Source of the DNA: Solwaraspora sp. WMMA2056
GTDB taxonomy: Bacteria; Actinomycetota; Actinomycetes; Mycobacteriales; Micromonosporaceae
Assembly: GCF_030345095.1 (NCBI RefSeq)
Contig: NZ_CP128360.1
Location: forward strand, 3,720,001 to 3,784,000
Reading direction: 5' to 3'
Length of the DNA: 64,000 nucleotides
In this document: positions 25,412 to 58,203 of the stretch, piece by piece
How positions within the stretch are numbered: the first letter of the stretch is position 1
Layout of the letters: each line of letters opens with the position of its first letter
Position numbers and translations under genes: made by a program
The notes under the pieces: generated by a model
Databases searched by the model: none
Seen by the model: only the letters and a program-made list of their open reading frames with translations
What the model was told of the DNA's origin: nothing

Positions 25412-25729
25412 ATGCACCGGACCTTGATCGTCGCGCGGCTGCAGCCGGGGCACGCCGACCGGGTCGCCGAGGTGTTCGGCGAGTCGGACCGCACCGAACT
25501 GCCGCACCTGCTCGGGGTCCGCTCGCGCAGCCTGTTCACCTTCCACGACCTGTACTTCCACCTGATCGACTCCGATCAGGACCTGGGTCCGGGGCTGGCC
25601 CGGCACCGTGACCATCCACTGTTCACCGAGGTCAGTGACCGGCTGGCGGCGCACGTCAGCGCGTACGACCCGGGCTGGCGCGGCCCGGCGGACGCGATGG
25701 CCACCGAGTTCTACCGGTGGCGGCGGTGA
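25412..25729 (+). CDS. TcmI-type polyketide cyclase
   Basis: A 105-residue ferredoxin-fold cyclase of the TcmI family (usual length about 110). The sequence opens [21 protein letters not shown], continues with [16 protein letters not shown] and ends [11 protein letters not shown], all family hallmarks. TcmI closes the last rings of tetracenomycin-type and pentangular polyketides. ATG at 25412 follows GGAGGGACC. It is the first gene of the long core operon and its stop overlaps the KS-alpha GTG. Confidence 0.92.
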
Positions 25730-27033: not shown

Positions 27034-28277
27034 GCGCCCCGACGCCCGGCGCCCTGACATCCGGCACCGCCGGCGGGCGGGCACTGGTGACCGGGATCGG
27101 CGTCGTCGCCCCCAACGGCACCGGGGTGCCGGCGTACTGGTCGGCCACCCTGGCCGGCAAGAGCGGCATCCGGCCGCTGCCGTCGGTGGGTGCCGACTAT
27201 CCGCTGCGGGTCGGCGGCGTCGCCGAGGACTTCGTCGCCGGCGCGCACCTGCCGCCCCGGCTGACCGCGCAGACCGACCGGTGGACCGCGTTCGGGCTGG
27301 CCGCCGCGACCGAGGCGTTCGCCGACGCCGGCATCGACCCGACGACCCTGCCCGAGTACGAGTTCGGTGTGGTCACCGGCAGCTCGTCCGGCGGCAACGA
27401 GTTCGGCCAGCGGGAGATCGCCCGGCTCTGGTCGCAGGGGCCGCAGTTCGTCGGCGCCTACCAGTCGATCGCCTGGTTCTACGCGGCGACCACCGGGCAG
27501 TTGTCCATCCGCTACGGCGCCCGGGGCCCGTGCGGGGTACTGGTCAGCGAACAGGCCGCCGGGCTGGACGCCCTCGCCGACGCCCGGCGGCTGCTGCGCG
27601 CCGGCAGCCGACTCGTGGTCTCCGGCGGGGCCGAGGCGCCGCTGTCGCCGTACGCCATCGTCTGCCAGCTGGCCAGCGGCCGGCTGGCCACCGGCGACGA
27701 CCCGCACCGCAGCTACCTGCCGTTCGCCGCCGACGCGGCCGGCTACGTGCCCGGCGAGGGCGGGGCGATCCTGCTGGTCGAACGGGAGGACTCGGCGCGT
27801 TCGCGCGGTGCCCGTGGGTACGCCGAGATCGCCGGCTGCGCCGCCACGTTCGACCCCCGGCCCGGCACCGGCGAGCCGGGCCTGCGCCGGGCGATCGAAG
27901 CGGCGCTGGCCGACGCCGGCCAGCGACCGGCCGACGTCGACGTGGTCTTCGCCGACGGCGCCGGGGTCCGCGAGGCCGACCGGCAGGAGGCCGCGGCGAT
28001 CGCCGCCGTGTTCGGTCCCGGCCGGGTGCCGGTGGCGGTGCCGAAGACGATGACCGGCCGGATGTACGCCGGTGGGGCCGCCCTCGACGTGGTGGCGGCG
28101 GTGCTGGCAATCCGGGACTCGGTCCTGCCGCCGGCGGTGGGGATCGGCGCGCCGGCCCCGGACTGTCCGCTCGACCTGGTCCTGGAGGTGCCCCGCCCGG
28201 CGCGGGTGCGGGTGGCGGTGGTGCTGGCCCGTGGCTACGGCGGGTTCAACGCCGCGCTGGTGGTCAGGGCGGTGTGA
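27030..28277 (+). CDS. Type II PKS chain-length factor (KS-beta)
   Basis: A 415-residue ketosynthase-fold protein. The active-site Cys is replaced by Gln 175 ([10 protein letters not shown]), the diagnostic KS-beta change that gives malonyl-ACP decarboxylation and sets chain length with KS-alpha. [19 protein letters not shown] and [12 protein letters not shown] are conserved in the C-terminal half. The GTG overlaps the KS-alpha stop by GTGA, so the pair is co-translated. Chain length cannot be read reliably from the sequence by eye. Confidence 0.96.
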
Positions 28278-28280
28278 CGA

Positions 28281-28302
28281 CCCTCCGCCGGCCGGCGGAG
28301 GG
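28281..28302. terminator. Perfect palindrome between CLF and ACP genes
   Basis: A perfect 22-base palindrome whose half is CCCTCCGCCGG starts four bases after the CLF stop and ends just before the ACP ribosome-binding site GGAAGGG. As RNA it forms a strong stem with almost no loop. It could be an attenuator, or an RNA-processing or 3'-stabilising stem that sets the ratio of ketosynthase to ACP. Confidence 0.55.
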
Positions 28303-28322
28303 CAGACGGAAGGGACGACCAG

Positions 28323-28586
28323 ATGCCCACGTTCACAGTGGACGACCTTGGTGCGCTGCTCGGTGAGGTGGCGGGGGAGGGCGCCGGACCCGGCCCGGCC
28401 GCCGCCGACACCAGCTACGCCGACCTCGGCTACGACTCGCTGGCGCTGCTGGAGGTCAGCGTCCGGGTCCGTCAGACGCTCGGCGTCGAGGTGCCGGAGG
28501 ACGCCGTCGCGGTCACCGCCACCCCGGCGCAGACGGTCGCCCAGATCAACGAGATCCTCGCCAACCCGCCGGTGAGCACGGCATGA
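28323..28586 (+). CDS. Type II PKS acyl carrier protein
   Basis: An 87-residue carrier protein; Ser 39 in DLGYDSLALLE takes the phosphopantetheine arm. It carries the growing polyketide between KS-alpha/beta, ketoreductase and cyclases. The segment SYADLGYDSLALLEVSVRV matches aromatic PKS ACPs. ATG at 28323 follows GGAAGGGACGACC. Its stop overlaps the aromatase start by ATGA. Confidence 0.96.
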   Translation: MPTFTVDDLGALLGEVAGEGAGPGPAAADTSYADLGYDSLALLEVSVRVRQTLGVEVPEDAVAVTATPAQTVAQINEILANPPVSTA

Positions 28587-29113
28587 GCGGGCGTACCGAC
28601 AACGCGATCAGGATCGCCGCGCCGATGGAGCTGGTCTGGTCGGTCACCAACGACGTCGCCGGCTGGCCACAGCTGTTCAGTGAGTACGCCGCCGCAGAGA
28701 TCCTGCACACCGCGCCGAACTACGTACGGTTCCGGCTCACCACCCACCCCGAGGACGGGCGCAGCTGGAGCTGGGTCTCCGAGCGGGAACTCGACCCGGT
28801 CAACCGGGTGGTGACCGCCCGGCGGGTCGAACCCGGCCCGTTCGAGTACATGCGGCTGCGGTGGGAGTACCGCCAGGTCGGCGACGAGGTCGAACTGCGC
28901 TGGCAGCAGGAGTTCCAGATGCGTCCGGACGCCCCGGTCGACGACGCCGCGATGACCGAACGGATCAACCGAAACTCCCCGATCCAGCTGGCCCGGATCA
29001 AGCAGATCCTGGAAAGCGGCGGCCCGTCGCCGACACCGGAGCAGGAGTCGTCGCCGTCGCTGGAGCGGGCACCGGAGCAGGAGTCGTCGCCGTCGCTGGA
29101 GCGGGCGCCGTGA
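28583..29113 (+). CDS. TcmN-type aromatase/cyclase (SRPBCC)
   Basis: A 176-residue START-like protein. It opens RTDNAIRIAAPMELVWSVTNDVAGWPQLF split over residues 4-32 and includes WSWVSERELDP and FEYMRLRWEY, typical of TcmN N-terminal ARO/CYC domains that direct first-ring C9-C14 or C7-C12 cyclisation. It is single-domain, without the methyltransferase part of TcmN. The C-terminal 25 residues are a two-fold repeat (PEQESSPSLERA twice) outside the fold, coded by a tandem DNA duplication. Its stop overlaps the next gene by GTGA. Confidence 0.93.
   Translation: MSGRTDNAIRIAAPMELVWSVTNDVAGWPQLFSEYAAAEILHTAPNYVRFRLTTHPEDGRSWSWVSERELDPVNRVVTARRVEPGPFEYMRLRWEYRQVGDEVELRWQQEFQMRPDAPVDDAAMTERINRNSPIQLARIKQILESGGPSPTPEQESSPSLERAPEQESSPSLERAP
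29036..29107 (+). repeat. 36-bp tandem duplication in the aromatase C terminus
   Basis: Two adjacent 36-base copies differ only at the last base (35/36 identity). The unit begins CCGGAGCAGGAGTCGTC and encodes PEQESSPSLERA in frame. The high identity suggests a recent slippage duplication that lengthens an acidic tail. Confidence 0.9.
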
Positions 29114-29580
29114 GCGCCCTCGCGCAGACCGCCGCCGGACTCGCCGCCGTCTGCAACGGCGTCGCCGCCGGGATCATGGTCTCCACCGTGGTCGGCATCG
29201 TGCCGATGATGGTCGCCCAGCCGTACCGGGGGTACGTCCGGACCGTCCAGTTTCTCTGGCCGCGCTACGACCCGCTGATGCCGATCCTCAACGGTACGGC
29301 CCTGGCGCTGGCGGTGGTCGCCGCGATCGCCGCGCCCACCGCGTCGGCGCGCACTGTCCTGGTCGTCGCCGCCGCGCTGCTGGCCACCGTGATGGCCATC
29401 TCGATCGTCAAGAACGTCCCGGTCAACCGGTACGTCAGCCGGCTCGACCCCGGCCGGCAACCCGACGACTGGGCCCGGCTCGACCCCCGCCTGCGCTGGC
29501 AGCGCTGGAACCGGATCCGTACCGCCGCGGCCGTGCTCGCCTTCATCGCGAACGTCGCCGCCACCGGGCTGCTGACCTGA
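29110..29580 (+). CDS. DUF1772 / anthrone oxygenase-like membrane protein
   Basis: A 156-residue protein with about four predicted transmembrane segments (around 5-30, 52-72, 80-97 and 132-152) and the DUF1772 features NVPVNRYVSR and RWQRWNRIRTAAA. DUF1772 is linked to anthrone oxygenase-like proteins and is common in type II PKS clusters. GTG overlaps the aromatase stop. A paralogue of the same family is encoded at 52847. A role in quinone-forming oxidation is plausible but not shown. Confidence 0.85.
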   Translation: MSALAQTAAGLAAVCNGVAAGIMVSTVVGIVPMMVAQPYRGYVRTVQFLWPRYDPLMPILNGTALALAVVAAIAAPTASARTVLVVAAALLATVMAISIVKNVPVNRYVSRLDPGRQPDDWARLDPRLRWQRWNRIRTAAAVLAFIANVAATGLLT

Positions 29581-29621
29581 CCCCGGTGACACCGAACCCG
29601 AATCGTCTGTTGGAGGCATCC

Positions 29622-30353
29622 ATGCCCACCTCACTGTCCGGCCGGGCGGCCCTGGTCACCGGGGGCACCCGGGGAATCGGCCGGGGCATCGTCACGGCCC
29701 TGGCCCACGCCGGTGCCGACGTCGTCGCCTGCTACCGCGCCGACGGCCCGCACGTCGACGACCTCGCCCGTACGCTCAAGGAGATCCCCGGCGACCACCA
29801 CCTGGTCCGCGCCGACATCGGCGACCCCGGGCAGCTCACGGCCCTGGCCGACGAGTGCCGGCTGCGGTACGGCCGGCTCGACGTCGTGGTCAACAACGCC
29901 GGCGTGATCAGCCACCAGCCGATCGACCAGTTGGCCGTCGACGAGTGGCGGCGGGTGCTGGACACCAACCTCACCGGCGCGTTCCTGGTCGTGCGGGAGG
30001 TCCTGCCCCTGCTCGGCGCCGGGGCGTCGATCGTCAACGTCGGCTCCCGGGTCGCCACCGTCGGCATCCCGCTGCGTGCCCACTACACCGCCGCGAAGGC
30101 CGGCCTGATCGGGCTCACCCGGTCGTTGGCCAAGGAACTCGGGCCCCGGGGAATCCGGGTCAACCTGGTGGCACCCGGCGTGATCGCCACCGAGAAGGAG
30201 CTGCCCGCCGAGGTCCTGGCCCGTTACGAGCAGCTGACCGCGCTGCGCCGCCTCGGCACCCCGCAGGAGGTCGCCGCCGTGGTCTGCTTCCTCGCCAGCG
30301 AAGCGGCCGGCTACCTGACCGGCGCCACCGTCGACGTCGACGGTGGGATCTGA
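29622..30353 (+). CDS. SDR ketoreductase (FabG-like)
   Basis: A 243-residue classical SDR with all catalytic elements: NADPH loop TGGTRGIGRG, NNAG, Ser in VNVGSRVAT and YTAAK. It ends GATVDVDGGI. It is the only intact SDR reductase in the core operon and is thus the best candidate for polyketide ketoreduction, as in pentangular polyphenol clusters (PdmG-like position). ATG at 29622 follows TGGAGG. A start at 29586 has no ribosome-binding site. Confidence 0.93.
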   Translation: MPTSLSGRAALVTGGTRGIGRGIVTALAHAGADVVACYRADGPHVDDLARTLKEIPGDHHLVRADIGDPGQLTALADECRLRYGRLDVVVNNAGVISHQPIDQLAVDEWRRVLDTNLTGAFLVVREVLPLLGAGASIVNVGSRVATVGIPLRAHYTAAKAGLIGLTRSLAKELGPRGIRVNLVAPGVIATEKELPAEVLARYEQLTALRRLGTPQEVAAVVCFLASEAAGYLTGATVDVDGGI

Positions 30354-30354
30354 C

Positions 30355-30792
30355 ATGGCGGCCCCCCAGACGGCCCGGGCGCCCGAGGCGCCCGAGGCAT
30401 CGCAGACCGATCAGTGGCCGGAGTCGGCCACCGCGTACCGGGTGCTGCTGCGGATGCAGGTCAAGGCCGGGCAGGACGACCAGTTCGTCCGGGCCTGGTG
30501 CTCCGGCGCGGCCACCATCGCCGCCGAGGCCGCGCAGCTCGGCCAGTCGCTGAGCCGCAGCGACACCGAACCCGGCGTGTACTACATCGTCAGCGACTGG
30601 ACCGACGAGGCCAGCTTCCGCGACTACGAGCAAAGCGACCGGCACCAGGAACACCGGGCCCGGCTGCACCCGTACCGTGAGTCGGGGTCGATGTCGACGA
30701 TGACCGTGGTCGCGGTCCGCCCCGCTGACGCGGCCGGCCCGCGCGCTGGCGACGGAGCCGGTCCGCCGGCCGCCGACGGAGCCGACCGGTGA
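30355..30792 (+). CDS. ABM-domain monooxygenase/cyclase, first of pair
   Basis: A 145-residue antibiotic-biosynthesis-monooxygenase fold protein with flexible Pro/Ala-rich ends. The core YRVLLRMQVKAGQDDQFVRAW, VYYIVSDWTDEASFRDYEQS, HRARLHPYRESGSM is typical of cofactor-free ABM oxygenases (TcmH, PdmH/PdmI-like) that oxidise anthrones to quinones. Position right after the ketoreductase and coupling to a second ABM gene match pentangular clusters. Confidence 0.9.
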   Translation: MAAPQTARAPEAPEASQTDQWPESATAYRVLLRMQVKAGQDDQFVRAWCSGAATIAAEAAQLGQSLSRSDTEPGVYYIVSDWTDEASFRDYEQSDRHQEHRARLHPYRESGSMSTMTVVAVRPADAAGPRAGDGAGPPAADGADR

Positions 30793-31103
30793 GCGGCCCA
30801 CGGGTCTGCGTACTGCTGTTCGCCGTGGCCCCGCCGGACGGGCCGGCCAGCGTCGTCGACGCCTACCACCAGGTGAGCCGGGAACTCGACGGCACCCCGG
30901 GACTGGTCCGCAACGCCCTGCTGGAACTGGTCGACCCGCCGGGGTCGATGGTGGTGCTCAGCGAGTGGGCCAGCATGGCGGCGTTCCACGCCTGGGAGCA
31001 GGGTGCGGCACACCGGCAGATCACCGCGCCGCTGCGGCCGTACCAGGACACCCGGATGAGTCCGCCGTTCGGCGTCTACCGCGTCGCGGCCTCCTACGGG
31101 TAG
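30789..31103 (+). CDS. ABM-domain monooxygenase, second of pair
   Basis: A 104-residue ABM-fold protein: RVCVLLFAVAPPDGPASVVDAY, MVVLSEWASMAAFHAWEQGA, MSPPFGVYRVAAS. GTG overlaps the previous stop by GTGA. Paired ABM enzymes in pentangular clusters act together, often as a complex with the ketoreductase or cyclase, on the anthrone stage. Confidence 0.9.
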   Translation: MSGPRVCVLLFAVAPPDGPASVVDAYHQVSRELDGTPGLVRNALLELVDPPGSMVVLSEWASMAAFHAWEQGAAHRQITAPLRPYQDTRMSPPFGVYRVAASYG

Positions 31104-32938: not shown

Positions 32939-34012
32939 ATGCGGATTCTGGTCACCGGAGGTGCCGGGTTCATCGGCCGGCGGGTGGTCACCGCCCTGGT
33001 CGACGCCGGTCACGAGGTACGCGTCGTCGACGCGCTGCTGCCCGAGGCCCACCCCGACGGCACGCCGCCGCCGATGCCCGACGGCGTCGAGTTCGTTCCC
33101 GGCGATCTGCGCGATCCCGCGACGGTGGAGACGGTGCTGCGCGGCGTCGACCTGGTCAGTCACCAGGCGGCGGTGGTCGGTCGGGGTCGGGAGATCCTCG
33201 ACGCCCGCCGGCACGTCGGCTGCAACGACCTCGGCACCGCCACGCTGCTGGCGGCGATGGCCGAGGCCGACATCGGTCGGCTGGTCCTCGCCGGCAGCGT
33301 GGTGATCTACGGCGCCAGCCGCTACCGCTGCCCGGAGCACGGGCTGACCCGCCCGGCCGGGCGCGAACCGCACGATCTGGCGGCCGGCCGGTTCGCGCCG
33401 GTCTGCGGGCAGTGCCGCGGCGTCGTCGACGCCGAGCCGGTCACCGAGGACGACGTGCCGGACCCACCGCGCAACATGTACGCCGTCACCAAGCTCGCCC
33501 AGGAGCTGCTGGTCGACGCCTGGGCGGTGCAGACCGGCGGCAGCGCGATCTCGTTGCGCTACCACAACGTGTACGGCCCCGACATGCCCTACGCCAGCCC
33601 GTACTCCGGGGTGGCGGCCACCTTCCGCAGTGCGGTCGTCGCCGGGGTCGCACCCCGGGTGTACGAGGACGGCGCCCCCCGCCGGGACTTCGTCCACGTC
33701 GACGACATCGTGTCGGCCAACGTCGCCGCGCTGCGCCGCACCGACGCGGGCCTACGGACGTACAACGTCGCCTCCGGCGACCCCCGGACGATCCTGGAGG
33801 TGGCGACGGTGCTGGCGGCCGCCGGTGGCGGCCCGGCACCGGTGGTGACCGGCGAGTACCGGGTGGGCGACGTCCGGGAGATCGTCGCCTCCCCTCGGCG
33901 GATCATGACCGAGCTCGGCTGGACGCCGACGGTCGGGTTCGCCGACGGCATGGCGGCGTTCGCGGTGGCGCCGATGCGGGGCCGTACCCCGGCGGAGGAC
34001 GCATGTCGGTGA
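32939..34012 (+). CDS. NAD-dependent epimerase, dTDP-L-rhamnose 4-epimerase-like with Zn-ribbon-like insert
   Basis: A 357-residue extended SDR. It has the NAD loop VTGGAGFIGRRV and catalytic YAVTK. Inserted at residues about 125-160 is a four-ligand cluster, YRCPEHG then about 30 residues later VCGQCRG, which looks like a small zinc ribbon. This insert and the rest of the sequence resemble enzymes annotated as dTDP-L-rhamnose 4-epimerase, which make dTDP-6-deoxy-L-talose. That would let the cluster use cellular dTDP-rhamnose, consistent with the lack of early deoxysugar genes. ATG at 32939 follows GGAAGGGAG; the stop overlaps the GT2 start by 10 bases. Confidence 0.85.
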   Translation: MRILVTGGAGFIGRRVVTALVDAGHEVRVVDALLPEAHPDGTPPPMPDGVEFVPGDLRDPATVETVLRGVDLVSHQAAVVGRGREILDARRHVGCNDLGTATLLAAMAEADIGRLVLAGSVVIYGASRYRCPEHGLTRPAGREPHDLAAGRFAPVCGQCRGVVDAEPVTEDDVPDPPRNMYAVTKLAQELLVDAWAVQTGGSAISLRYHNVYGPDMPYASPYSGVAATFRSAVVAGVAPRVYEDGAPRRDFVHVDDIVSANVAALRRTDAGLRTYNVASGDPRTILEVATVLAAAGGGPAPVVTGEYRVGDVREIVASPRRIMTELGWTPTVGFADGMAAFAVAPMRGRTPAEDACR

Positions 34013-35334
34013 GCGTGGTCATCCCGACCCTCGGCACCCGTACGTCACTGTGGTCCTCGGTGGAGGGTGCGGTCCGGGCGGCGTCCGCCACCGGCCCCGA
34101 CGCCGAGGTGCTGGTCGTCGTCAACGGCGCGCGACGGCTGCCGGCCCTGCCCCGCTCGTCGCTGGTGCGGGTGCTGCGCCTGGAGCGGGCCAACGTGGCG
34201 CGGGCCCGCAACGCCGGGCTGGCGGCGGCCTGCAACGACATCGTGCTGTTCGGCGACGACGGTGCCGGCTATCCGCCGAGCTGGGGACGCGACCTGGCGG
34301 CGGCGCTGGCCGGCACCGACTGCCCGGTGGTGACCGCCCCGGTCCGGGTGCCGCAGCGGGGGCCGGTGACCGCCTTCTGCAACCATCAGCGGCTGTTCGA
34401 CGCGCCACCGGTCGACGCCCGCTCGGCCCGCACCGTCACCGGCAACTGCGGGGTACGGCGTGACCTGCTGCCCGGCTGGTTGCGCTTCGACGAGAAGCTG
34501 CCGCTGGTCGGCGAGGACGTCGCGTTCGGTCATGCGGTACGGGCCGCCGGGCTGCCGATCCGGTGGCTGGCCGGCACGGCACCGGGTCTGCACCTGTTGC
34601 CGGAGCACGTCGACGAGATCACCGAACGGGCCCGGCGCTACGGTCGGGGTGCCGCGCTGGTCTGGCGCGGCGACGGCACCGGGGCCGATCCGGCCGGGAT
34701 GCTCGCGCAGTTCCGGTTGCTCGCCTCGGCCGGCTACCGCCGGTACCGCCGCTTCCCGGAGGTGCGCTCCGATGGGCTGCGCGCCGCGTTCGCGCTGTAC
34801 GGCTACCTGTTCGAGGCCGCGTTCGTCGCCGGCTACCTGGCCGAGGCGCTCGACGCCGGCGGTGCACCGGTGGCCGACGTCGACCTCGCCGGGCTGACCT
34901 CGGCGTGGCGGTCGGTCGCCGACCGGGCGGCTGCTGCCGTCGTGTCGCCCGCCACGGCGGCGGTCGGGCTGGACCTGACCCGGCTCGACGTCGGCACCAC
35001 AGTCGACCTGCCACTGGTCGAGGCCGCCCGGCAGGCGCTGGCCGACCACGTCCGGCCGGGCACCGGCCCGGCCGCGCCGGTGTCCGCCGTGCTGCCCGCC
35101 CCGGCCGCGTCGGCCGCGTCGGTGTCTGGTCCGGTGTCCGGTACGGCCGGCCAGGCGGACCTGCACCGGGTGCTCGCCGTCTGGCGGGCGGTACGGGCCG
35201 ACGGCGGCCCCACCGACCTGGACACCCTGGACGCGCGGCTGCGCACCGAGGGCCTGGTGCTGCGGGAGGCGTGCGCGGTCATCGAACGGGCCGCGATGTG
35301 GCGGGCCGGTCGGGCGACGGCGTCCGCCAGCTGA
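34003..35334 (+). CDS. GT2-family glycosyltransferase with C-terminal helical extension
   Basis: A 443-residue protein. Residues 1 to about 235 are a GT-A family 2 domain: MSVSVVIPTLGTRTSLWSSV, the metal motif FGDDGAGYP and TGNCGVRRDLLPG with downstream GEDVAFG. The remaining 200 residues are Ala-rich and helical, of unknown function. It is a paralogue of the GT2 at 56821-58203, sharing VVVNG, TGNCGVRRD and the GED segment. It is the last gene of the core operon and ends before a bidirectional terminator. Confidence 0.88.
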   Translation: MSVSVVIPTLGTRTSLWSSVEGAVRAASATGPDAEVLVVVNGARRLPALPRSSLVRVLRLERANVARARNAGLAAACNDIVLFGDDGAGYPPSWGRDLAAALAGTDCPVVTAPVRVPQRGPVTAFCNHQRLFDAPPVDARSARTVTGNCGVRRDLLPGWLRFDEKLPLVGEDVAFGHAVRAAGLPIRWLAGTAPGLHLLPEHVDEITERARRYGRGAALVWRGDGTGADPAGMLAQFRLLASAGYRRYRRFPEVRSDGLRAAFALYGYLFEAAFVAGYLAEALDAGGAPVADVDLAGLTSAWRSVADRAAAAVVSPATAAVGLDLTRLDVGTTVDLPLVEAARQALADHVRPGTGPAAPVSAVLPAPAASAASVSGPVSGTAGQADLHRVLAVWRAVRADGGPTDLDTLDARLRTEGLVLREACAVIERAAMWRAGRATASAS

Positions 35335-38637: not shown

Positions 38638-39111
38638 ATGTCCACCGTCGAACCACCAGCCAGTCCACCGTCACCCCCTGTCGTGCACCGGCCGGTCGGT
38701 GCCGCCGACGTCACGGCGAACCGCCGGCGCGGCGGTGACCTGCGGGTACTGCTCGGTCCGGCGACCGTCGGCGCCACCGCCGGGTTCCTCGGTGTGGTCA
38801 CCCTGGCCCCCGGCGAGTACGTCTCCGAGCACTACCACCCGTACTCGGAGGAGTTCCTGTACGTCGTCTCCGGGTCGGTGGTGGTCCGCCTCGACGGCAC
38901 CGACGTGCCGGTCGACGCCGGGCAGGCGGTGTTCGTCCCGATCGGCGTACCGCACCGGGTCACCAACTCCAGCGACGCCCCGGCGGTCGCGACCTTCCAG
39001 CTCTGTCCGCTCGCGCCCCGACCCGAACTCGGCCATGTCGACACCGAACCGCAGCCGGGCGTCGGACCGACCCTGCAGGTCGGGCCGAGTCTGCCGGTCG
39101 GACCCCGGTGA
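38638..39111 (+). CDS. Cupin-domain polyketide cyclase, TcmJ-like
   Basis: A 157-residue single-cupin protein. The metal-binding motif 1 is EHYHPYSEEFLYVVSG and motif 2 is VFVPIGVPHRVTN. Cupins of this size (TcmJ, PdmK/PdmL-like) assist TcmI-type cyclases in folding pentangular or tetracenomycin frameworks. The tail after residue 140 has a short VGP-rich repeat. ATG at 38638 follows GGGGAGG. Its stop overlaps the next gene by GTGA. Confidence 0.88.
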   Translation: MSTVEPPASPPSPPVVHRPVGAADVTANRRRGGDLRVLLGPATVGATAGFLGVVTLAPGEYVSEHYHPYSEEFLYVVSGSVVVRLDGTDVPVDAGQAVFVPIGVPHRVTNSSDAPAVATFQLCPLAPRPELGHVDTEPQPGVGPTLQVGPSLPVGPR

Positions 39112-45658: not shown

Positions 45659-46678
45659 ATGCGGTTGGGAGTCTTCCTGTCCCGCGACAGCGGGCCACAG
45701 GTGGCCGAGGAGGCCGAGCGGCTCGGATACGAGACGGCCCTGGTTCCGGAGGGGTTCAAACAGGACGCGCCGAGCCTGCTCGGCGCGGTGGCCGCCCGTA
45801 CCCGGCGGATCCGGCTGGCGTCCGGTGTGATGCAGATCCCGGCCCGTACGCCGGTGCTGACCGCGCTCACCGCGTCGACCCTGGACGCTCTCAGTGGCGG
45901 CCGGTTCGCCCTGGGGCTCGGGGTGTCCAACCCGGACGTGTCACTCGGCTGGTACGGCGTGCCGTACGACCGACCGTTGGCCCGCACCGAGGAGTACCTC
46001 GCGGTGGTCCGGATGGCGCTGTCCGGAGCGCCGGTACGCCACCAGGGCCGGTTCTACCAGTTGCCGCCGGAGGGCACCACCGAGGCGGCGCAGCTGCGGG
46101 CCGGGCCGCCCCGCCCGCAGCTGCCGATCTACCTGGCGGCGGTCGGACCGGCGAACCTGGAGCTGGCCGGCCGGGTCGCCGACGGGTGGATCGGGGTGTT
46201 CTGCTCGCCGCAGCGGCTGGCCGACTCGCTGCACCGGGTGCGGGCCGGCCGCCAGCAGGCCGGCCACCGGCTGGACGGGTTCGAGGTGCTGCCGTCGGTG
46301 CCGATCAGCGTGGGCCCGGACCCGGTGGCCGCCGCCGAAGCGGTCCGCGGCTACTTCGCGAACTTCATCGGCCTCGGCAGCCGCCACCGCAGCATCTACC
46401 ACCGGTTGGTGACCGAACTCGGCCACGGCGCGGCGGCGGACGAGATCCGGGACCGTCAGCGCTCGGGTGACCGGGCCGGCGCGGCGGCCGCCGTACCGAT
46501 GGCGTTGATGGACGACACGTCGCTGATCGGCCCGGCGCAGCGGATCGCGCCCCGACTCGCCGCGTACGCGGCCGCCGGGGTGACCACCCTGGGGCTCACC
46601 CCGCTGGCCGCCACCGCCGCCGGACAGATCGAGGCGCTACGGGTGGCCGCCGCCGCGCTGCGCCTCGCCGGCGGCTGA
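45659..46678 (+). CDS. LLM-class F420/FMN-dependent oxidoreductase
   Basis: A 339-residue luciferase-like TIM-barrel protein: MRLGVFLSRDSGPQVAEEAE, RTRRIRLASGVMQIPARTPV, LDALSGGRFALGLGVSNPDV and LPIYLAAVGPANLELAGRVADG split over residues 161-182. These features are closer to F420-dependent LLM reductases than to the MsnO8-like enzyme at 5068. It is a candidate for a late redox step. ATG at 45659 follows GAGGGGAG. Its last 42 bases overlap the end of the convergent beta-helix gene. Confidence 0.88.
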   Translation: MRLGVFLSRDSGPQVAEEAERLGYETALVPEGFKQDAPSLLGAVAARTRRIRLASGVMQIPARTPVLTALTASTLDALSGGRFALGLGVSNPDVSLGWYGVPYDRPLARTEEYLAVVRMALSGAPVRHQGRFYQLPPEGTTEAAQLRAGPPRPQLPIYLAAVGPANLELAGRVADGWIGVFCSPQRLADSLHRVRAGRQQAGHRLDGFEVLPSVPISVGPDPVAAAEAVRGYFANFIGLGSRHRSIYHRLVTELGHGAAADEIRDRQRSGDRAGAAAAVPMALMDDTSLIGPAQRIAPRLAAYAAAGVTTLGLTPLAATAAGQIEALRVAAAALRLAGG

Positions 46679-47950
46679 CGCCGCCGACCGGCGCAGCCGG
46701 ACCCAGCCGGTGACGTTGCGTTGCATGGTGCGGGCCATGCCCAGCGCACCGGCGGGCACGTCGTCGGTGATCACCGAGCCGGCGGCGGTCTCCGCGCCGT
46801 CGCCGACCTCGACCGGTGCCACCAGGATCGTGCCGGCGCCGATGGAGACGCCGTCACCGATGCGGACCCGGCTCTTGACGCCACCGTTGAAGTTCGCCGG
46901 CCCGGACATGCTCGCCAGGTTGCAGCCGCGTCCGACGTCGGCGCTGAACAGTCCGGCCAGGTGCGGGACGCTGGTGCCGGCGCCGACCGTCGAGTCGGCG
47001 ATCTCCACGAACGCCCCGGCGCGGCAGTCGTCGCCGAGGCTGGCGCGGGAGCGCAGCCAGGCGTACGGCCCGACGTTGACCCGGTCACCGAGGTCGACGT
47101 CCTGACAGACCGCGTACCGGATCTCGCAGTCGGCACCGACCCGGCAGTCGTGCAGCGACACCCCGGGGCCGATCCGGCTGCCGGCGTCGACCGTGGTGTG
47201 GCCGGTCAGTCGGGTGCCGGCCAGTACGGTGACGCCGGGCGCGAGCTGGACCGTGGCGTCGATGGAGGTGGTCGCCGGGTCCTCCACGTACACGCCGCGT
47301 CGTAGCCAGCCGGCCACGATCCGGGCCTGGACGGCCCGGTGGGCCTCGGCCAGCTCCACCGGGTCGGTGGTGCGTAACGACTCGGTCGGGTGCAGGGTCA
47401 CGTCGTCGACCCGCACCCCGGCGGCGACCAGCTGGTGGCGTACGGCGGCGCAGGGTGTCTCGGCGGCGAGGTGGCCGGCGAGCCGGGCGACAGAGAGAGG
47501 GACGGGCCCGGCGAGGACCAGGCCGGCCGGTGCGTCGGGCGTGGCCGGCGGGGTCGGATCCCACCACGGTGCGGGGCGTCGCGCCCGCAGCAGCACCACG
47601 CGGCCGCCGCCGGTGCCGCCGGTGTCGTCGGTGACCCGGTCCACCGCCCAGGCCAGGGTGCCGGCCCCGATCAGCGGCGTCGCCGTGCCGATCAGCAGTA
47701 CCGGCCGGTCGCCGGGGCGCGGCGGTTTCGTGACCACCTCGGCGTCGAGACGGGCGAGGGTGTCCAGCAGCCAGTGGCCCGCCGGCCGCCCGGCCAGCAC
47801 CGCCTGCTCCGGTCCGTCCGGCACCGCCTGCTCCGGTCCGTCCGGCACCGCCTGCTCCGGTCCGTCCGGCACCGCCTGCTCCGGTCCGTCCGGCATTGCC
47901 TGGCTAGGCGCGCCGACGAGCACCGCGACCGGCCGGTGCCGGCCGCTCAC
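46637..47950 (-). CDS. GlmU-like left-handed beta-helix acyltransferase without the uridyltransferase domain
   Basis: A 437-residue protein. Residues about 190-430 are a hexapeptide left-handed beta-helix closely like the C-terminal acetyltransferase of GlmU (EIADSTVGAGTSVPHLAGLF, ANFNGGVKSRVRIGDGVSIG, LVAPVEVGDGAETAAGSVIT), including the His of NHL type in VPHLAG. The first 190 residues do not contain the nucleotidyltransferase motif LxxGxGTRMxS; they hold four copies of PDGPEQAV and a divergent region. So this is not a housekeeping GlmU but probably an acyltransferase acting on an amino sugar. GTG overlaps the PIG-L stop, so deacetylase and acyltransferase are co-translated. Confidence 0.85.
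   Translation of the reverse strand: MSGRHRPVAVLVGAPSQAMPDGPEQAVPDGPEQAVPDGPEQAVPDGPEQAVLAGRPAGHWLLDTLARLDAEVVTKPPRPGDRPVLLIGTATPLIGAGTLAWAVDRVTDDTGGTGGGRVVLLRARRPAPWWDPTPPATPDAPAGLVLAGPVPLSVARLAGHLAAETPCAAVRHQLVAAGVRVDDVTLHPTESLRTTDPVELAEAHRAVQARIVAGWLRRGVYVEDPATTSIDATVQLAPGVTVLAGTRLTGHTTVDAGSRIGPGVSLHDCRVGADCEIRYAVCQDVDLGDRVNVGPYAWLRSRASLGDDCRAGAFVEIADSTVGAGTSVPHLAGLFSADVGRGCNLASMSGPANFNGGVKSRVRIGDGVSIGAGTILVAPVEVGDGAETAAGSVITDDVPAGALGMARTMQRNVTGWVRLRRSAASAAGEAQRGGGHP
47801..47896 (-). repeat. 24-bp tandem repeat, four copies
   Basis: Four head-to-tail copies of a 24-base unit (CGCCTGCTCCGGTCCGTCCG plus GCAC) code for PDGPEQAV four times near the N terminus of the beta-helix protein. Copies are identical except for the final base. 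This is an in-frame, probably length-variable linker, not a CRISPR: there are no spacers. Confidence 0.92.
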
Positions 47951-48651
47951 CGGTGACCCGCCGGTGCCGACTGCGGTCCGCCGCCGCACGCCGCGCCGAG
48001 ACCGGTGACGTCGAGGGCGGCCTTGACCAGCCGGAACGCCTCGCAGTAGCGGACCTCGGTGAGGTCGTGGGTGGCGGCCTGGCGGGCCCACCACGTCGCC
48101 CGGTCCCGGATCGCCTGCTCGGCGACGTACGGCTTGTCGCGTTCGGACTGGTACTTGGCCACCGCCGCGAGCTTGTCCGGCATCCGGGCGGTGACGTCGA
48201 CGTAGACGTCCGGAGTGAACAGGTTGTTCATCAAGGGTGGTTCGGCCTGCAGAATGGTGCGGACGAACGGACTGCGGCCGGCCATCGTGGTCGCCGCCCG
48301 ACCGGCGGTCTCGTGGTCCTGGTGGTCACCGGCGCCCACCAGGTGGGTGATCACCAGCGCCGGGCGGACCCGGTGCAGGTGGTCGGCGACGCAGGAGTAC
48401 GTCTGCCGGTCGGCGGCGAGCGCGCCGTCGACGAGATTCTCGATGACGAGGTTGGCCCCGATCACCCCGGCGGACTGCTTCGCCTCGTCGGGGCGGGCCG
48501 CCGCGGCCGGTGAGGAACTCGCCGAGCCGTCGGTGAGCGCGAGGATGTGGACGTCGAAGCCGGCGGCGCCGAGCCCGGCGAGGGTGCCGAAGCAGCCGAG
48601 TTCGGCGTCGTCGGGGTGGGCGAAGACAGCCAGTACCGACGGATGGGCCAC
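47947..48651 (-). CDS. PIG-L/LmbE family N-acetylglucosaminyl deacetylase
   Basis: A 234-residue zinc deacetylase. The first metal and catalytic motif is FAHPDDAELG; the second is GAGDHQDHETAG. Family members (MshB, TioL, teicoplanin deacetylase) remove acetyl groups from GlcNAc units of glycolipids, thiols or antibiotics. GTG at 48651 follows CAGGAG, whereas the longer frame opening at 48771 has no support. Translational coupling to the GlmU-like acyltransferase suggests deacetylation followed by re-acylation of an amino sugar on the product, as in teicoplanin. Confidence 0.9.
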   Translation of the reverse strand: MAHPSVLAVFAHPDDAELGCFGTLAGLGAAGFDVHILALTDGSASSSPAAAARPDEAKQSAGVIGANLVIENLVDGALAADRQTYSCVADHLHRVRPALVITHLVGAGDHQDHETAGRAATTMAGRSPFVRTILQAEPPLMNNLFTPDVYVDVTARMPDKLAAVAKYQSERDKPYVAEQAIRDRATWWARQAATHDLTEVRYCEAFRLVKAALDVTGLGAACGGGPQSAPAGHR

Positions 48652-50862: not shown

Positions 50863-51780
50863 TCAGGCGAACGCGATCCCGACCGGTACCGCCCCGTGAG
50901 CGACGTACTGGGTGGTCATGAAGATCCGGTACGGCTGCCGCGTCGGCCCGGCCGGTCGGCGCCGCCGGCAGGTCACCGCGATCGCCACGGCCCCGCCGGC
51001 CAGGGCCGCCGCCGGCCAGCGCAGCACCGGATCCACCCCGACCGCCGCCGCGCCGAACGCGACGGCCACCAGGAGCGCGTTGACCGACACCCGTCGCCCA
51101 GCGGCCGGCACACCACGCAGCACCGCCGAGGTCCGTCGCCCGGTCGCCGCGTCACCGGCGACGTCGGACAGGTCCTTGGCCAGCGCGCCGACGAGACCCA
51201 TCCAACACGACATCGCGACGGCGAACACCAGCAGCGCGGGCGGCACGCCGCCGCCACCGGCCGCTACCGCCCCGGCGGTGAACGTCACCAGTCCGGCCAG
51301 TACCACGGTGGCCCCGGCGGCCACGCTCCACCGCTTCAGGCGAAGCGGCGGCGCGGAGTAGGCCCAGCCGAGCAGCAGCGCCAGGCCGACCAGGCCGAGC
51401 CAGGCCACACCGAGGACAGCGGCCCCGGCCACCGCAAGACCCGCCCAGGCCGTGGCCACCCCCGCCGCCACCGGCACCGGCAGTACGCCGCGGGCGATCG
51501 GCCGGCGGGAGCCGTTGACCCGGTCGCCGACCACATCGGTCACCCCGTCGAACAGGTAGACGCTGGCGGCGACGCAGAGCCAGGCGGCGAGCGCCACCGG
51601 CATCCGCCACCACGCGGCGGTGGTCTCCGGCGCGGCGACGGTGGCCAGCGCGCCGGCGACCAGGAAGCGCATCGTGTAGATCGCCAGTACGGCGGGCCTG
51701 GCCTCGATGACACACCAGCCCAGGTAGCGGCCCGTCATTCGCCAGCTTTGCCTGGACACTTCGACAGACGTCGTGGTCAT
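50863..51780 (-). CDS. UbiA-family membrane prenyltransferase
   Basis: A 305-residue polytopic protein with eight or nine hydrophobic helices. The first Asp-rich motif is FDGVTDVVGDRVNG (Asp 78, 82, 86), the second is KDLSDVAGD (Asp 203, 206, 210), and YSAPPLRLKRWS lies between them; these bind the Mg-prenyl diphosphate in UbiA enzymes. It would transfer an isoprenoid to an aromatic or other acceptor at the membrane. No prenyl diphosphate synthase is encoded nearby, so the donor would come from primary metabolism. ATG at 51780 lacks a strong ribosome-binding site. It is divergent from the SARP gene. Confidence 0.9.
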   Translation of the reverse strand: MTTTSVEVSRQSWRMTGRYLGWCVIEARPAVLAIYTMRFLVAGALATVAAPETTAAWWRMPVALAAWLCVAASVYLFDGVTDVVGDRVNGSRRPIARGVLPVPVAAGVATAWAGLAVAGAAVLGVAWLGLVGLALLLGWAYSAPPLRLKRWSVAAGATVVLAGLVTFTAGAVAAGGGGVPPALLVFAVAMSCWMGLVGALAKDLSDVAGDAATGRRTSAVLRGVPAAGRRVSVNALLVAVAFGAAAVGVDPVLRWPAAALAGGAVAIAVTCRRRRPAGPTRQPYRIFMTTQYVAHGAVPVGIAFA

Positions 51781-54588: not shown

Positions 54589-55662
54589 TCAGTCTCCGGC
54601 CCGGTCCTGGCTGTCGGGTCCAGCGTCTCTGGTGTCGGATCCAGCGTCTGCGCTGTCGGGTCCAGCGTCTGCGCTGTCGGGCCGGCAGCGGCAGTCGGTC
54701 CCGACCGGCTGCGGGCAGACCGCGTCGCGCGGGTCGGACACCGTGGCCAGGCGGGCCCGCTCGGCCGCGTCGAGCCGGACCGCTGCGGCGGCCAGGTTCA
54801 TCTCCAGGTGGGTCGGGTCCCGGGTGCCGGCCACCGGCAACACGTCGGGGCCCTGCGCCAGCAGCCAGGCCAGGGCGAGCCGACTCACCCCGACGTGCCG
54901 GCGGGTGGCCACCCGCTGCGCGGCGCCGACCATCCGCCGCGTACGGGCGAAGTTGTCCGGCCGGAACCGGGGGTCGGCGTGCTGGTATGCGTCGGGGGCC
55001 AGCTGGTCGGGGGAGTCCAGCCGCCCGGTGAGCAGACCGGCACCGAGCGGGCGGTACGCCGCGAACCCGATCCCCAGGGCCCGGGCGGCGGGTAGCAGTT
55101 CCGTCTCGGCGCAGCGGCCGAGCAGCGAGTACTCGGCGGCTACCAGCGCCAACGGGTGCACCGCGTGGGCACGCCGGAGCTGACCGACGCCGACGTGGGC
55201 GACGCCGAGGTGGCGTACCTTGCCGGCGGCCACCAGCGCGGCCATCGCCTGCACGCTCTCCTCGACCGGCACCCGGGGGTCGGCGCGGTCGAGGAGGTAC
55301 AGGTCCAGGTAGTCGGTGCCGAGCCGGCGCAGGGTCGTGTGGCAGGACCGGGTCACCGTCTCGGGGCGGGCGTCGACGTCGACCAGCCGCCCGCTCCGGG
55401 TGTAGCGGCCGCCGCTGCGGCTGGCCAGCAGGACCGCCGTACGGCGGCCGCGCAGCGCCCGGCCGACGACGGTCTCGACGTCCCCGCCGGTGGTCAGGTC
55501 GGTGGCGTCGACCAGGCTGGTGCCGAACTCCCGTAGCTGGCCGATCATCCCGTCGGCGACGGCCCGGTCGACCGGGCCACCGCAGCCCGCGGTGAAACTC
55601 ATCGCGTTCAGGGCGATGGGCGTGGCGACCAGGCCGGTGGCCCCGAATCGGCGTGGCTGCAC
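54589..55662 (-). CDS. Aldo/keto reductase-fold protein lacking the catalytic tetrad
   Basis: A 357-residue AKR TIM-barrel protein. Fold and cofactor segments are clear (MQPRRFGATGLVATPIALN, TLRRLGTDYLDLY, VPVEESVQAM, GKVRHLGVAHVG, LPVAGTRDPTHLEMN). Of the Asp-Tyr-Lys-His tetrad, Asp is kept in LVDATD, but Tyr is Thr (DLTTGG, for DVYGxG), Lys is Arg (LLASRSG, for IATKxG) and His is Asp (LYLLDRADP, for LYQLHRPDP). Ordinary reductase chemistry is therefore unlikely. The tail carries three PDSADAG-like repeats. It lies in a minus operon after the second carrier protein. Confidence 0.87.
   Translation of the reverse strand: MQPRRFGATGLVATPIALNAMSFTAGCGGPVDRAVADGMIGQLREFGTSLVDATDLTTGGDVETVVGRALRGRRTAVLLASRSGGRYTRSGRLVDVDARPETVTRSCHTTLRRLGTDYLDLYLLDRADPRVPVEESVQAMAALVAAGKVRHLGVAHVGVGQLRRAHAVHPLALVAAEYSLLGRCAETELLPAARALGIGFAAYRPLGAGLLTGRLDSPDQLAPDAYQHADPRFRPDNFARTRRMVGAAQRVATRRHVGVSRLALAWLLAQGPDVLPVAGTRDPTHLEMNLAAAAVRLDAAERARLATVSDPRDAVCPQPVGTDCRCRPDSADAGPDSADAGSDTRDAGPDSQDRAGD
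54612..54674 (-). repeat. 21-bp tandem repeat, three copies, in the AKR tail
   Basis: Three adjacent 21-base units of the form TGTCGGGTCCAGCGTCTGCG plus C encode PDSADAG-like heptapeptides at the AKR C terminus. The copies differ at a few bases. They form an acidic, probably disordered tail. Confidence 0.85.
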
Positions 55663-55674
55663 GGCGGGGCGGGT

Positions 55675-55965
55675 TCAGCCGGTCGGGCAGAGGTGCCGGG
55701 CGAGGTCGGCCAGGCTGTCGTGCTCGAACAACGCGGCGGCGGCGATCTCGATGCCGAGTTCCTCCTCCAGACCGGCGTGTACCTGCAACAGCTGCACCGA
55801 GTTGGCGGCGACGTCGGTGATCCGGCGCTCCGGTGGGATCGGTCCGGGGTCCGGTTCGCCGGCGTCCACCAGGATCCGGGCCAGCACCCGCTGCAGGGCC
55901 TGCAGGGTCTGCCGGTACCTGGCGCCGTCGGTCGCCGCCGGCTGGTCGTGGTCGTCGGCACGCAT
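55675..55965 (-). CDS. Second stand-alone acyl/peptidyl carrier protein
   Basis: A 96-residue carrier protein with the attachment Ser 56 in DVAANSVQLLQVHAGLEEEL. It differs from the PKS ACP at 28323 (ANS in place of GYDS), so it probably serves another chain. The fatty acyl-AMP ligase at 14827 is the obvious loading partner, as FAALs load carrier proteins. The gene lies between an AKR-fold and a glycosyltransferase gene in one minus operon. Confidence 0.87.
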   Translation of the reverse strand: MRADDHDQPAATDGARYRQTLQALQRVLARILVDAGEPDPGPIPPERRITDVAANSVQLLQVHAGLEEELGIEIAAAALFEHDSLADLARHLCPTG

Positions 55966-55984
55966 CGGTGTCCCTTCTGGTCGT

Positions 55985-56824
55985 TCACTGGTGGCGGTAG
56001 TAGCTCCACAGGTCGTGGTACGGGATCGTGGTGCCCTCCCGGCGGGCCCGCGCCCATTCGCCGGCCCAGTGCAGCATCAGGGTGGGTGCCGCCGGCTCGA
56101 TGATCCGTCCGTTGTGCACGACGAAGGCCGGGTCGCCGGCCCACCGCTCGGCCGGCAGGTCCCAGGCGCCGGTGGTCGCGGCGATCGTGTAGAGGCTGGT
56201 GTAGGGGGCACCGGAGGTGACGATCAGATAGTTGAGGAAGGGCTGCTCGGCGCAGGTGAGCTCCATGTGGGCGGCCAGCGCGAGCGCCTCGGGCAGGCGG
56301 GCGGTGGCGTGCGCCAGGGACAGGTTGCCCCGGCGGGAGGCGATGAAGCCGGTGTTGGCGGCGAAGGCGACCTGTTCGTCGGTCAGCACGCCGACGTCGT
56401 GGATGCTGTCGCGCCACACCCATCTGCGGATCTCCGGTTGGTGTGAGTGTGACGTGACGAACGAGTAGTCGTCGAGGTAGCGGTAGACGAAGTGGACGTT
56501 GTGCAGGACCACCGTGTCGCAGTCGATGTAGACGAACTCGTCGTACGGTCCATGCCAGATCGCGAGCTTGCGGTACTGGCCGCTGGCTGCGCCATGGAAG
56601 GCGTACCCGATCTCGTCGCACCGGTCCAACACCGCATAATCATCGAAGATCTCAAATTCATATTGATGGCGGAGTGCGCGGAGCGCGTCGATGTCGCCGG
56701 CGAAGGGGACCAGGCACAGCGGGGTCCAGGGATGATAGGTCCGGAAGCTGTTCAGAAATGCCAGCGCCTGCTCCAGCACGCCGTCGTTGGCCAGGAAATA
56801 GACACCCCTGCGCGCCCCGGTCAC
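55985..56824 (-). CDS. GT-A glycosyltransferase, GT8-like
   Basis: A 279-residue protein opening RRGVYFLANDGVLEQALAFLNS, with TPLCLVPFAGDIDAL and the metal motif DEFVYIDCDTVVLHN (DxD as DCD). This pattern matches GT-A enzymes of the GT8/LgtC type. It ends in APTLMLHWAGEWARA. It may transfer a hexose or amino sugar from a UDP donor. GTG overlaps the GT2 stop by GTGA. The codons for EFEIFDDYAV (56638-56670) are unusually AT-rich, perhaps a trace of separate origin. Confidence 0.8.
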   Translation of the reverse strand: MTGARRGVYFLANDGVLEQALAFLNSFRTYHPWTPLCLVPFAGDIDALRALRHQYEFEIFDDYAVLDRCDEIGYAFHGAASGQYRKLAIWHGPYDEFVYIDCDTVVLHNVHFVYRYLDDYSFVTSHSHQPEIRRWVWRDSIHDVGVLTDEQVAFAANTGFIASRRGNLSLAHATARLPEALALAAHMELTCAEQPFLNYLIVTSGAPYTSLYTIAATTGAWDLPAERWAGDPAFVVHNGRIIEPAAPTLMLHWAGEWARARREGTTIPYHDLWSYYRHQ

Positions 56825-58203
56825 CGCTGCGCGCCCTGTCGGACGTCGACGGCGGAGGTCCGCTGCGGCGAGCGGGCGTCGGTGCCGTTGGCGGCGATCC
56901 GGTCCACCAGGGCGCAGTACTCGGCGGCGGCACCGGCCACCGCGAACGAGACCCCGACGGCCCGCATCCGTCGGTCGAACTCCGACGGCGGCACCGCCGG
57001 CTGGTCCGGGTCGGCGTCGCGGATCGGGTGCCACACCCGGCGGACCCGCTCCAACAGCGCCAGGTACTCGCCGGGCTGCTCGCCGCCGCGGGCCAGGATC
57101 TCCGCGGCGGGTCCGTCCGGCACCACCGGCACCGGGCGGGCATGGGTACGCAGTGCCTGTCGCACCTCGGCCAGCGCCGGCTGGCGTTCCGACGCGCCGG
57201 TGGCGATCCGTCGGTAGTCGACCGGCAACGCCGTCCAGTCGACGTCCCGGGTCGCCGCCTCGATCCGGGCGGCCAGGTCGCGCCAGGCCCGGCTCAGTGC
57301 CGTGCGGTCCAGCTCCACCAGCAGGCATCCGGTCAGTTCGCCGAGGCGTACCAGGTAGCCGAGCAACGCCGAACTGATCATCAGATACTCGTAGACGGCG
57401 AACGCGGCGCGCACCCGGGGGTCGGCGAACTCGGCGAACCGCCGGTAGGTGCGGAACTCGTCCCGGGTCCGCTCCCGGTACCAGTCCAGCGCGCGGTGGG
57501 TGACGACCCGGGCGCGGTTGCGCCGCAGCAGCAGTTCGGGTGCGCTGGCGCCGTAGCGCAGGTAGCGGTCGGTGATCTCGCCGATCTGCTCGGCGCAGCC
57601 GTGCATCACCGGCGGCGCGCCGGACAACCAGCCGATGCGGTGGCCGGCCTCGTGCAACGCGGCACCGAAGTCCGAGTCCTCGCCCGAGGTGTGCAGGTCC
57701 TCGCAGAAGCGCAGGTCCGGGCCGAGCCGGTCGCGCCGTACCCCGCAGTTGCCGGTGGTGAGCGTGTCGGCTTCGGTCTCGTCGACCGGGATCGCGTCGA
57801 ACAGCCGCAGATAGTCGACGAAGGCGCTGACCGGTCCGGACACCACGGTACGGATCGGTGCGCAGAGCGCCGTCCGGTCCGGGCGGGCGAGCGCCCGCGA
57901 CATGTCCACGCACCAGGACGGCGGCACCAGACAGTCGTCGTCGACGTACAGGACGGTGTCGTGGACCGCCGCGTCCAGTACGACGTTGCGGGCCGCCGCC
58001 ACGTTGCGCCGTTCGCGGTAGTGCACCCGTAGCCGGCCACCGGCGATCCGGTCCAGTTCCGGCAGTCGTGACCGGCCGTTGACGACCACCAGGACCTCTG
58101 CGGTCTCCCCGGCGGTCCGGGCGGCCCGCAGCGCCGCCCGGACGGTCCGGACGAGCGCGGCGGGGTCGTCGCCCCTGGTGGGTATCCCTACCGAGACCGT
58201 CAT
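56821..58203 (-). CDS. GT2-family glycosyltransferase with C-terminal extension
   Basis: A 460-residue protein. The GT-A part reads MTVSVGIPTRGDDPAALV, VLYVDDDCLVPPSW (DxD as DDD), TTGNCGVRRDRLGPD and SGEDSDFGAA. It is paralogous to the GT2 at 34003 across both the catalytic part and the roughly 220-residue helical extension. ATG at 58203 follows GAAAGGA. It is the first gene of the rightmost cluster operon (GT2, GT8-like, carrier protein, AKR-fold, small frame). Confidence 0.89.
   Translation of the reverse strand: MTVSVGIPTRGDDPAALVRTVRAALRAARTAGETAEVLVVVNGRSRLPELDRIAGGRLRVHYRERRNVAAARNVVLDAAVHDTVLYVDDDCLVPPSWCVDMSRALARPDRTALCAPIRTVVSGPVSAFVDYLRLFDAIPVDETEADTLTTGNCGVRRDRLGPDLRFCEDLHTSGEDSDFGAALHEAGHRIGWLSGAPPVMHGCAEQIGEITDRYLRYGASAPELLLRRNRARVVTHRALDWYRERTRDEFRTYRRFAEFADPRVRAAFAVYEYLMISSALLGYLVRLGELTGCLLVELDRTALSRAWRDLAARIEAATRDVDWTALPVDYRRIATGASERQPALAEVRQALRTHARPVPVVPDGPAAEILARGGEQPGEYLALLERVRRVWHPIRDADPDQPAVPPSEFDRRMRAVGVSFAVAGAAAEYCALVDRIAANGTDARSPQRTSAVDVRQGAQR

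Follow-up and report, generated by a model that had tools for sequence, protein, structure and literature searches.

A GlmU-fold acyltransferase and a PIG-L deacetylase form a coupled gene pair in aromatic polyketide clusters

The stretch analysed here, 64,000 nucleotides of Solwaraspora sp. WMMA2056 (Micromonosporaceae; positions 3,720,001 to 3,784,000 of NZ_CP128360.1; hereafter the window), contains a type II polyketide synthase (PKS) cluster in which a gene for a PIG-L/LmbE-family deacetylase overlaps a gene for a GlmU-like protein. The latter, designated pseudo-GlmU, retains the left-handed beta-helix (LbH) acyltransferase domain of GlmU and lacks its uridylyltransferase site. The evidence supports the view that the deacetylase and the GlmU-fold acyltransferase are a coupled, conserved pair in aromatic PKS clusters bearing glycosyltransferase genes. 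With a probability of roughly 0.6, we propose that pseudo-GlmU is a GlmU-derived tailoring acyltransferase locked to the PIG-L deacetylase in clusters of the pentangular type, where the two enzymes edit the acylation of an amine. Feature coordinates are collected in Table 1.

The deacetylase has a short, BshB-like PIG-L domain of approximately 117 residues (residues 7–123). Its predicted metal ligands, His12, Asp15 and His113, and the predicted base Asp14 are invariant in all five pair members compared. The ligands and base of BshB are listed at the same positions (PMC4101496), and the window protein thus carries the His2-Asp ligand set and Asp base of the superfamily at the BshB numbers. The ratio of nonsynonymous to synonymous substitution rates (dN/dS) between the window gene and its counterpart in the sister strain G034 is 0.08, as under purifying selection. 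The capping-loop insertion and the PIG-L domain of approximately 165 residues that characterize the teicoplanin-type deacetylases are not found in the window protein; because its domain is as short as in BshB, there appears to be no room for such a cap.

Residues 175–432 of pseudo-GlmU match the C-terminal half of GlmU (NCBIfam, E 8.8e-70). Structures of Mycobacterium tuberculosis (Mtb) GlmU match the protein with an E value of 1.2e-44, and every PDB match down to 1e-20 is a GlmU. Pfam gives no match for the first ~190 residues, in which the family alignments reveal a uridylyltransferase remnant (DTPLLT-like motif). The AAGxGxRM loop, which is kept in 30 of 30 canonical GlmU copies, and the PKVL motif are lost in all five pair members tested; the protein is not a bifunctional GlmU. 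His330 corresponds to the catalytic His374 of Mtb GlmU. This residue is retained in all seven pair members together with Arg344, Asn388, Asn397 (Mtb numbering) and the C-terminal Trp of the (G/D)W motif, so that each has the catalytic His and the Asn388/Asn397 pair of the GlmU acetyltransferase domain on a hexapeptide-repeat domain. In Mtb GlmU, the H374A mutation abolishes the acetyltransferase activity, and the C-terminal part is active alone (PMC4619583). The window and G034 copies no longer have Lys362 and Tyr377 (Mtb numbering), which are replaced in the window copy by Ala and Gly (K362A, Y377G), and the pair members share the altered motif N[LI][SA][GAS][FM][ST]G..N[FHW][DN]G instead of NIGAxxxF.NYDG.

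Between the window and G034, the dN/dS value is 0.23 for the beta-helix and 0.58 for the N-terminal part, indicating that the acyltransferase half is the part kept by selection. The decayed N-terminus also contains a 24-bp tandem repeat (47790-47902, 4.7 copies) that encodes (DGPEQAVP)n and differs in copy number in G034. In a tree of the beta-helix, the five pair members tested split from the 30 canonical GlmUs with 100/99 support; long branches are flagged and the rooting is open. None of them groups with the GlmU of its own host, which does not support the idea that each host lost the uridylyltransferase half independently. A single origin of the pseudo-GlmUs would be compatible with the tree.

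The GTGA overlap claimed in the initial annotation is present in the sequence, and a 4-bp overlap is also found in G034, G101, Actinomadura rupiterrae and G905. Such overlaps are seen in both gene orders, and the linkage therefore looks selected. The pair occurs in at least six cluster lineages (window/G034, G101, A. rupiterrae, Actinomadura sp. CNU-125, G1018, and G905), all of which carry type II PKS and EryCIII-like glycosyltransferase genes. The whole G034 cluster is syntenic with that of the window, and the retention of the pair in this sister strain, with its recurrence in five further clusters, shows that the arrangement is more than chance. In the five non-window lineages, the genes for pseudo-GlmU, PIG-L, an exported-looking protein of ~300 amino acids and a family 1 glycosyltransferase (GT1) follow in this order, with a cytochrome P450 gene before that for GT1 in G101; in the window, PIG-L precedes pseudo-GlmU. 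Among the 80 PIG-L-related loci listed, ketosynthase (KS) genes are present only at the two with pseudo-GlmU. The pair is rare (1 of 395 class genomes and 4 of 343 genomes of the Actinomadura-type family). The matches listed for PIG-L relatives in the genome collection are a lower bound, and further clusters may exist. The coupling of a deacetylase to a GlmU-like acyltransferase, as first annotated, is thus upheld by a recurrent pair in which the PIG-L ligands and the GlmU catalytic His are kept. We found no description of a PIG-L/GlmU pair in the open-access literature searched, and no paper that combines PIG-L and GlmU, or a fatty acyl-AMP ligase (FAAL), with a type II PKS. As a separate observation, the exported-looking protein adjoining PIG-L in the five sister clusters (e.g. 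L144:18289-19191 and L033:16876-17820) gave no Pfam match in the two tested.

The proposed role can be outlined as follows. A duplicated GlmU would have lost its nucleotide-transferase half while retaining the acetyltransferase beta-helix, and the resulting pseudo-GlmU would have become a tailoring acyltransferase coupled to PIG-L. The deacetylase would strip the N-acetyl group off an amine of the pathway, be it an amino sugar or not, and a pseudo-GlmU trimer would use the conserved His to acylate that amine or another one. We infer an amino-sugar step here, and the edited amine is probably an amino sugar. The acyl donor would most likely be a coenzyme A (CoA) thioester; because of the GlmU ancestry and the conserved C-terminal Trp, CoA appears to be a likelier donor than a FAAL-loaded carrier. 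The window genes searched against Pfam gave no match to an aminotransferase family, and the sugar genes of the window have no counterpart in the A. rupiterrae (G301) and G1018 regions. Both results fit a supply of the sugar donor, for example UDP-N-acetylglucosamine (UDP-GlcNAc), by primary metabolism.

Several points weigh against this proposal. To remove an acetyl group and then restore it would achieve nothing, except where a different acyl group is added or a different site is used. The GT1 enzymes near the pair resemble EryCIII and forosaminyl- and rhamnosyltransferases; they look like deoxysugar transferases, and an acetamido group may therefore be absent from the sugar. The addition of GlcNAc by a glycosyltransferase, as originally annotated, is not borne out. 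The use of CoA is deduced from ancestry, and the loss of Lys362 and Tyr377 means that the window pocket may not be readable from GlmU. An AlphaFold model (three sequences) was poor, with a pLDDT of 51.7, and a Foldseek search with it returned nothing usable.

The ligase encoded at 14827-16584 appears by similarity to be a genuine FAAL, because FAAL models score up to 363 bits, whereas PRK06187, a generic model of long-chain acyl-CoA ligases, scores 135 bits, and because its best PDB matches include FadD32 and other ligases of the FAAL type. It had been annotated as a FAAL at 14827-16596; the family stands, whereas the predicted GTG start is at 16584, with 16596 within the same open frame. The second carrier protein differs from the PKS acyl carrier protein (ACP), as had been stated. 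Of 301 family genomes, the window genome and G034 were the only two in which it was found. A FAAL orthologue is present in two of the seven genus genomes, namely the two with this cluster, which does not favour the idea that the FAAL merely lies nearby and has nothing to do with the cluster. The dN/dS values are 0.12 for the carrier and 0.25 for the FAAL. The two genes are 39 kb apart in the window. Neither was found in the A. rupiterrae, G1018 and G905 regions, all of which have an intact pair, and for CNU-125, where the pair lies on a 24-kb contig, the presence of a FAAL is not judgeable. Thus, the FAAL and the carrier are not conserved together with the deacetylase and the acyltransferase, the pair does not depend on the FAAL, and the earlier assignment of both to one module with the pair is not supported.

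The FAAL and the second carrier would rather be an extra tailoring function of the window lineage. That they serve the polyketide itself and not the pair, by providing either an unusual starter unit or some other acyl decoration, has a chance only slightly short of even and is compatible with amine editing by the pair. PKS carriers are the classical loading targets of FAALs, and the top PDB match of the window FAAL is a ligase annotated as a polyketide synthase. In G101, the genes for a 39% identical FAAL, an ACP and a type I KS form a row (563181-567162), ~40 kb from the pair. However, no KSIII or matching type I KS adjoins the FAAL or the carrier in the window, and the window carrier is not closely related to the FAAL-linked ACP of G101. 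Comparison led us to reject the window carrier as an orthologue of a G101 ACP.

Less probable, though still to be reckoned with, is a protection or self-resistance cycle, in which pseudo-GlmU would N-acetylate an amine, the intermediate would stay inactive, and PIG-L would later remove the acetyl group. Both enzymes would keep their ancestral chemistry, the tight coupling would be accounted for, and ApmA, an LbH enzyme, inactivates a glycoside antibiotic through N-acetylation (PMC7885111). However, both proteins look cytosolic (no signal peptide by eye), so the timing would require substrate selectivity.

We consider it improbable that the enzymes follow the route first proposed for the cluster, in which a glycosyltransferase adds GlcNAc, PIG-L deacetylates it, the FAAL loads the carrier at 55675 with a fatty acid and pseudo-GlmU acylates the free amine. 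One cluster does hold all the parts, within the genus the FAAL orthologue and the carrier are confined to the two cluster-bearing strains, and the dN/dS values of the two genes given above also speak for this route. GlcNAc as the amine source would fit the lack of an aminotransferase match noted above. Furthermore, a small residue (Gly or Cys) occupies the Tyr377 position in the two FAAL-bearing lineages, which are also nearest to each other on the tree. Against this stand the three clusters with the pair and without the FAAL and carrier, the distance between these two genes, the GlmU ancestry, which points to acyl-CoA, and the apparent deoxysugar specificity of the glycosyltransferases. A FAAL-fed lipid version is conceivable only for the window lineage, as an exception, in which a pseudo-GlmU retuned by K362A and Y377G would move the fatty acyl group from the FAAL-loaded carrier onto a deacetylated amino sugar. 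We give this version a similarly small chance. If true, a GlmU descendant would transfer lipid acyl groups to an amine in a carrier-dependent manner, and the pathway would yield a lipoglycosylated pentangular-type polyketide, of which kind we know of none. Lastly, a second GlmU supplying UDP-GlcNAc to the cluster, as the strong GlmU similarity of the C-terminal half might suggest, was rejected as highly implausible, because the uridylyltransferase motifs are gone, the scores are far under the GlmU equivalog cut-offs (for the best, 235.7 bits compared with 611), and a full GlmU is encoded elsewhere in the genome.

Table 1. Coordinates of the gene pair and of related features in the window.
Feature	Position	Strand	Remarks
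PIG-L/LmbE-family deacetylase, 234 aa	47947-48651	-	PF02585, E 4.9e-22
Stop/start overlap GTGA, PIG-L/pseudo-GlmU	47947-47950	-	TCAC on the + strand; PIG-L stop TGA overlaps pseudo-GlmU start GTG
Pseudo-GlmU	46637-47950	-	Hexapep E 1.8e-18; uridylyltransferase remnant aa 1-~190, LbH acyltransferase domain aa ~195-420
GT1 glycosyltransferase, EryCIII-like	21589-22824	-	in five sister clusters, its homologue is two or three genes away from PIG-L
FAAL-type AMP ligase	14827-16584 (predicted GTG start)	-	FAAL models are the best NCBIfam matches
Second, discrete carrier protein	55675-55965	-	PF00550, E 1.3e-9; unlike the PKS ACP
Type II PKS core	25412-31103	+	TcmI-like cyclase, KS-alpha, KS-beta, ACP, TcmN-like cyclase, anthrone-oxygenase-like, ketoreductase, two ABM monooxygenases
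TcmI-like cyclase	25412-25729
PKS ACP	28338-28586
TcmN-like cyclase	28583-29113
Cupin (TcmJ-like) cyclase, third cyclase	38683-39111	+	59-63% identity in sister clusters

The type II PKS cluster occupies the middle of the window (genome size, 7.01 Mb). The PKS core shares 38–71% identity with the sister clusters, and KS-alpha is 67–71% identical across the four clusters where it is fully read. The cluster further encodes three EryCIII-like GT1 enzymes, P450s, methyltransferases and an ATP-binding cassette transporter. A role of the P450s as heme-less glycosyltransferase activators was ruled out because all three have the heme Cys motif. In A. rupiterrae, the KS-like protein L135 (G301:C9:376031-378181) has LGGGPAA where its G101 relative has the DTACSSS active-site motif, and is apparently a dead ketosynthase.

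Other window genes are missing from sister clusters. The aldo-keto reductase, both family 2 glycosyltransferase (GT2) genes, the UbiA and phosphoenolpyruvate (PEP)-synthase-like genes and the methyltransferase gene between the epimerase genes were not found in the A. rupiterrae, G1018 and G905 regions. The UbiA-type prenyltransferase (50863-51738) lies within the aromatic PKS cluster and is missing from the sister clusters, as are the PEP-synthase/RedH/Rph-like protein (18925-21573) and the directly following Amidohydro_2 protein (17999-18928). A compact run at 54589-58203, seen in the window lineage only, encodes a GT2, an Npun_R2822-family protein with a DxD-like motif, the second carrier and the aldo-keto reductase. 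The two GT2-like proteins (34003-35334 and 56821-58203) appear to be related to each other and have distant similarity to the glycosyltransferases EpsD and MftF.

If the amine-editing role is correct, a primary-metabolism enzyme has been cut to one half and recruited together with PIG-L as a tailoring unit across aromatic polyketide clusters of two actinobacterial families. The products of the six orphan cluster lineages marked by the pair should bear an edited amine or amino sugar, and the two coupled genes provide a clear genetic handle on its role.

The pair can be compared with several known systems. Pentangular and tetracenomycin clusters are distinguished by a set of TcmN-like, cupin TcmJ-like and TcmI-like cyclases (PMC4383371). 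All three cyclases are present in the window, which shares them and KS-alpha/KS-beta/ACP with clusters of the pradimicin, benastatin and frankiamicin type, whereas the PIG-L/GlmU pair is unmentioned in the type II PKS literature searched. GlmU has in common with pseudo-GlmU the beta-helix acetyltransferase domain, the catalytic His and most pocket residues; pseudo-GlmU differs in lacking the uridylyltransferase site, in its changed motif and in its location beside PIG-L in polyketide clusters. The closest named PIG-L family is BshB1, a GlcNAc-malate deacetylase, with which the window protein shares the compact domain and the ligand positions. However, its score of 84 bits is below the NCBIfam cut-off of 182.5 for the BshB1 equivalog, and it sits in a polyketide cluster instead of the bacillithiol gene context. 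ApmA, the apramycin N-acetyltransferase, likewise has the LbH fold and demonstrates that such enzymes can N-acetylate the amine of a glycoside (PMC7885111), but it is an XAT-type resistance enzyme.

The antibiotic clusters of teicoplanin and A40926 likewise encode a PIG-L/LmbE deacetylase (Tei2*/Dbv21) together with an acyltransferase that is a protein of its own (Tei11/Dbv8). To our knowledge, the Tei11/Dbv8 acyltransferase is not a GlmU-derived LbH protein; in the window, the partner of PIG-L is GlmU-derived and not of the Tei11/Dbv8 family. The initial annotation held that teicoplanin uses different enzyme families, which is correct for the acyltransferase and incorrect for the deacetylase, since the deacetylases of both systems belong to the LmbE/PIG-L family (PMC4101496). 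In these systems, an N-acetyl sugar is deacetylated and then re-acylated (PMC8987122, PMC4101496). They differ from the window pair in their glycopeptide scaffold and in a deacetylase whose PIG-L domain is longer and bears a capping loop.

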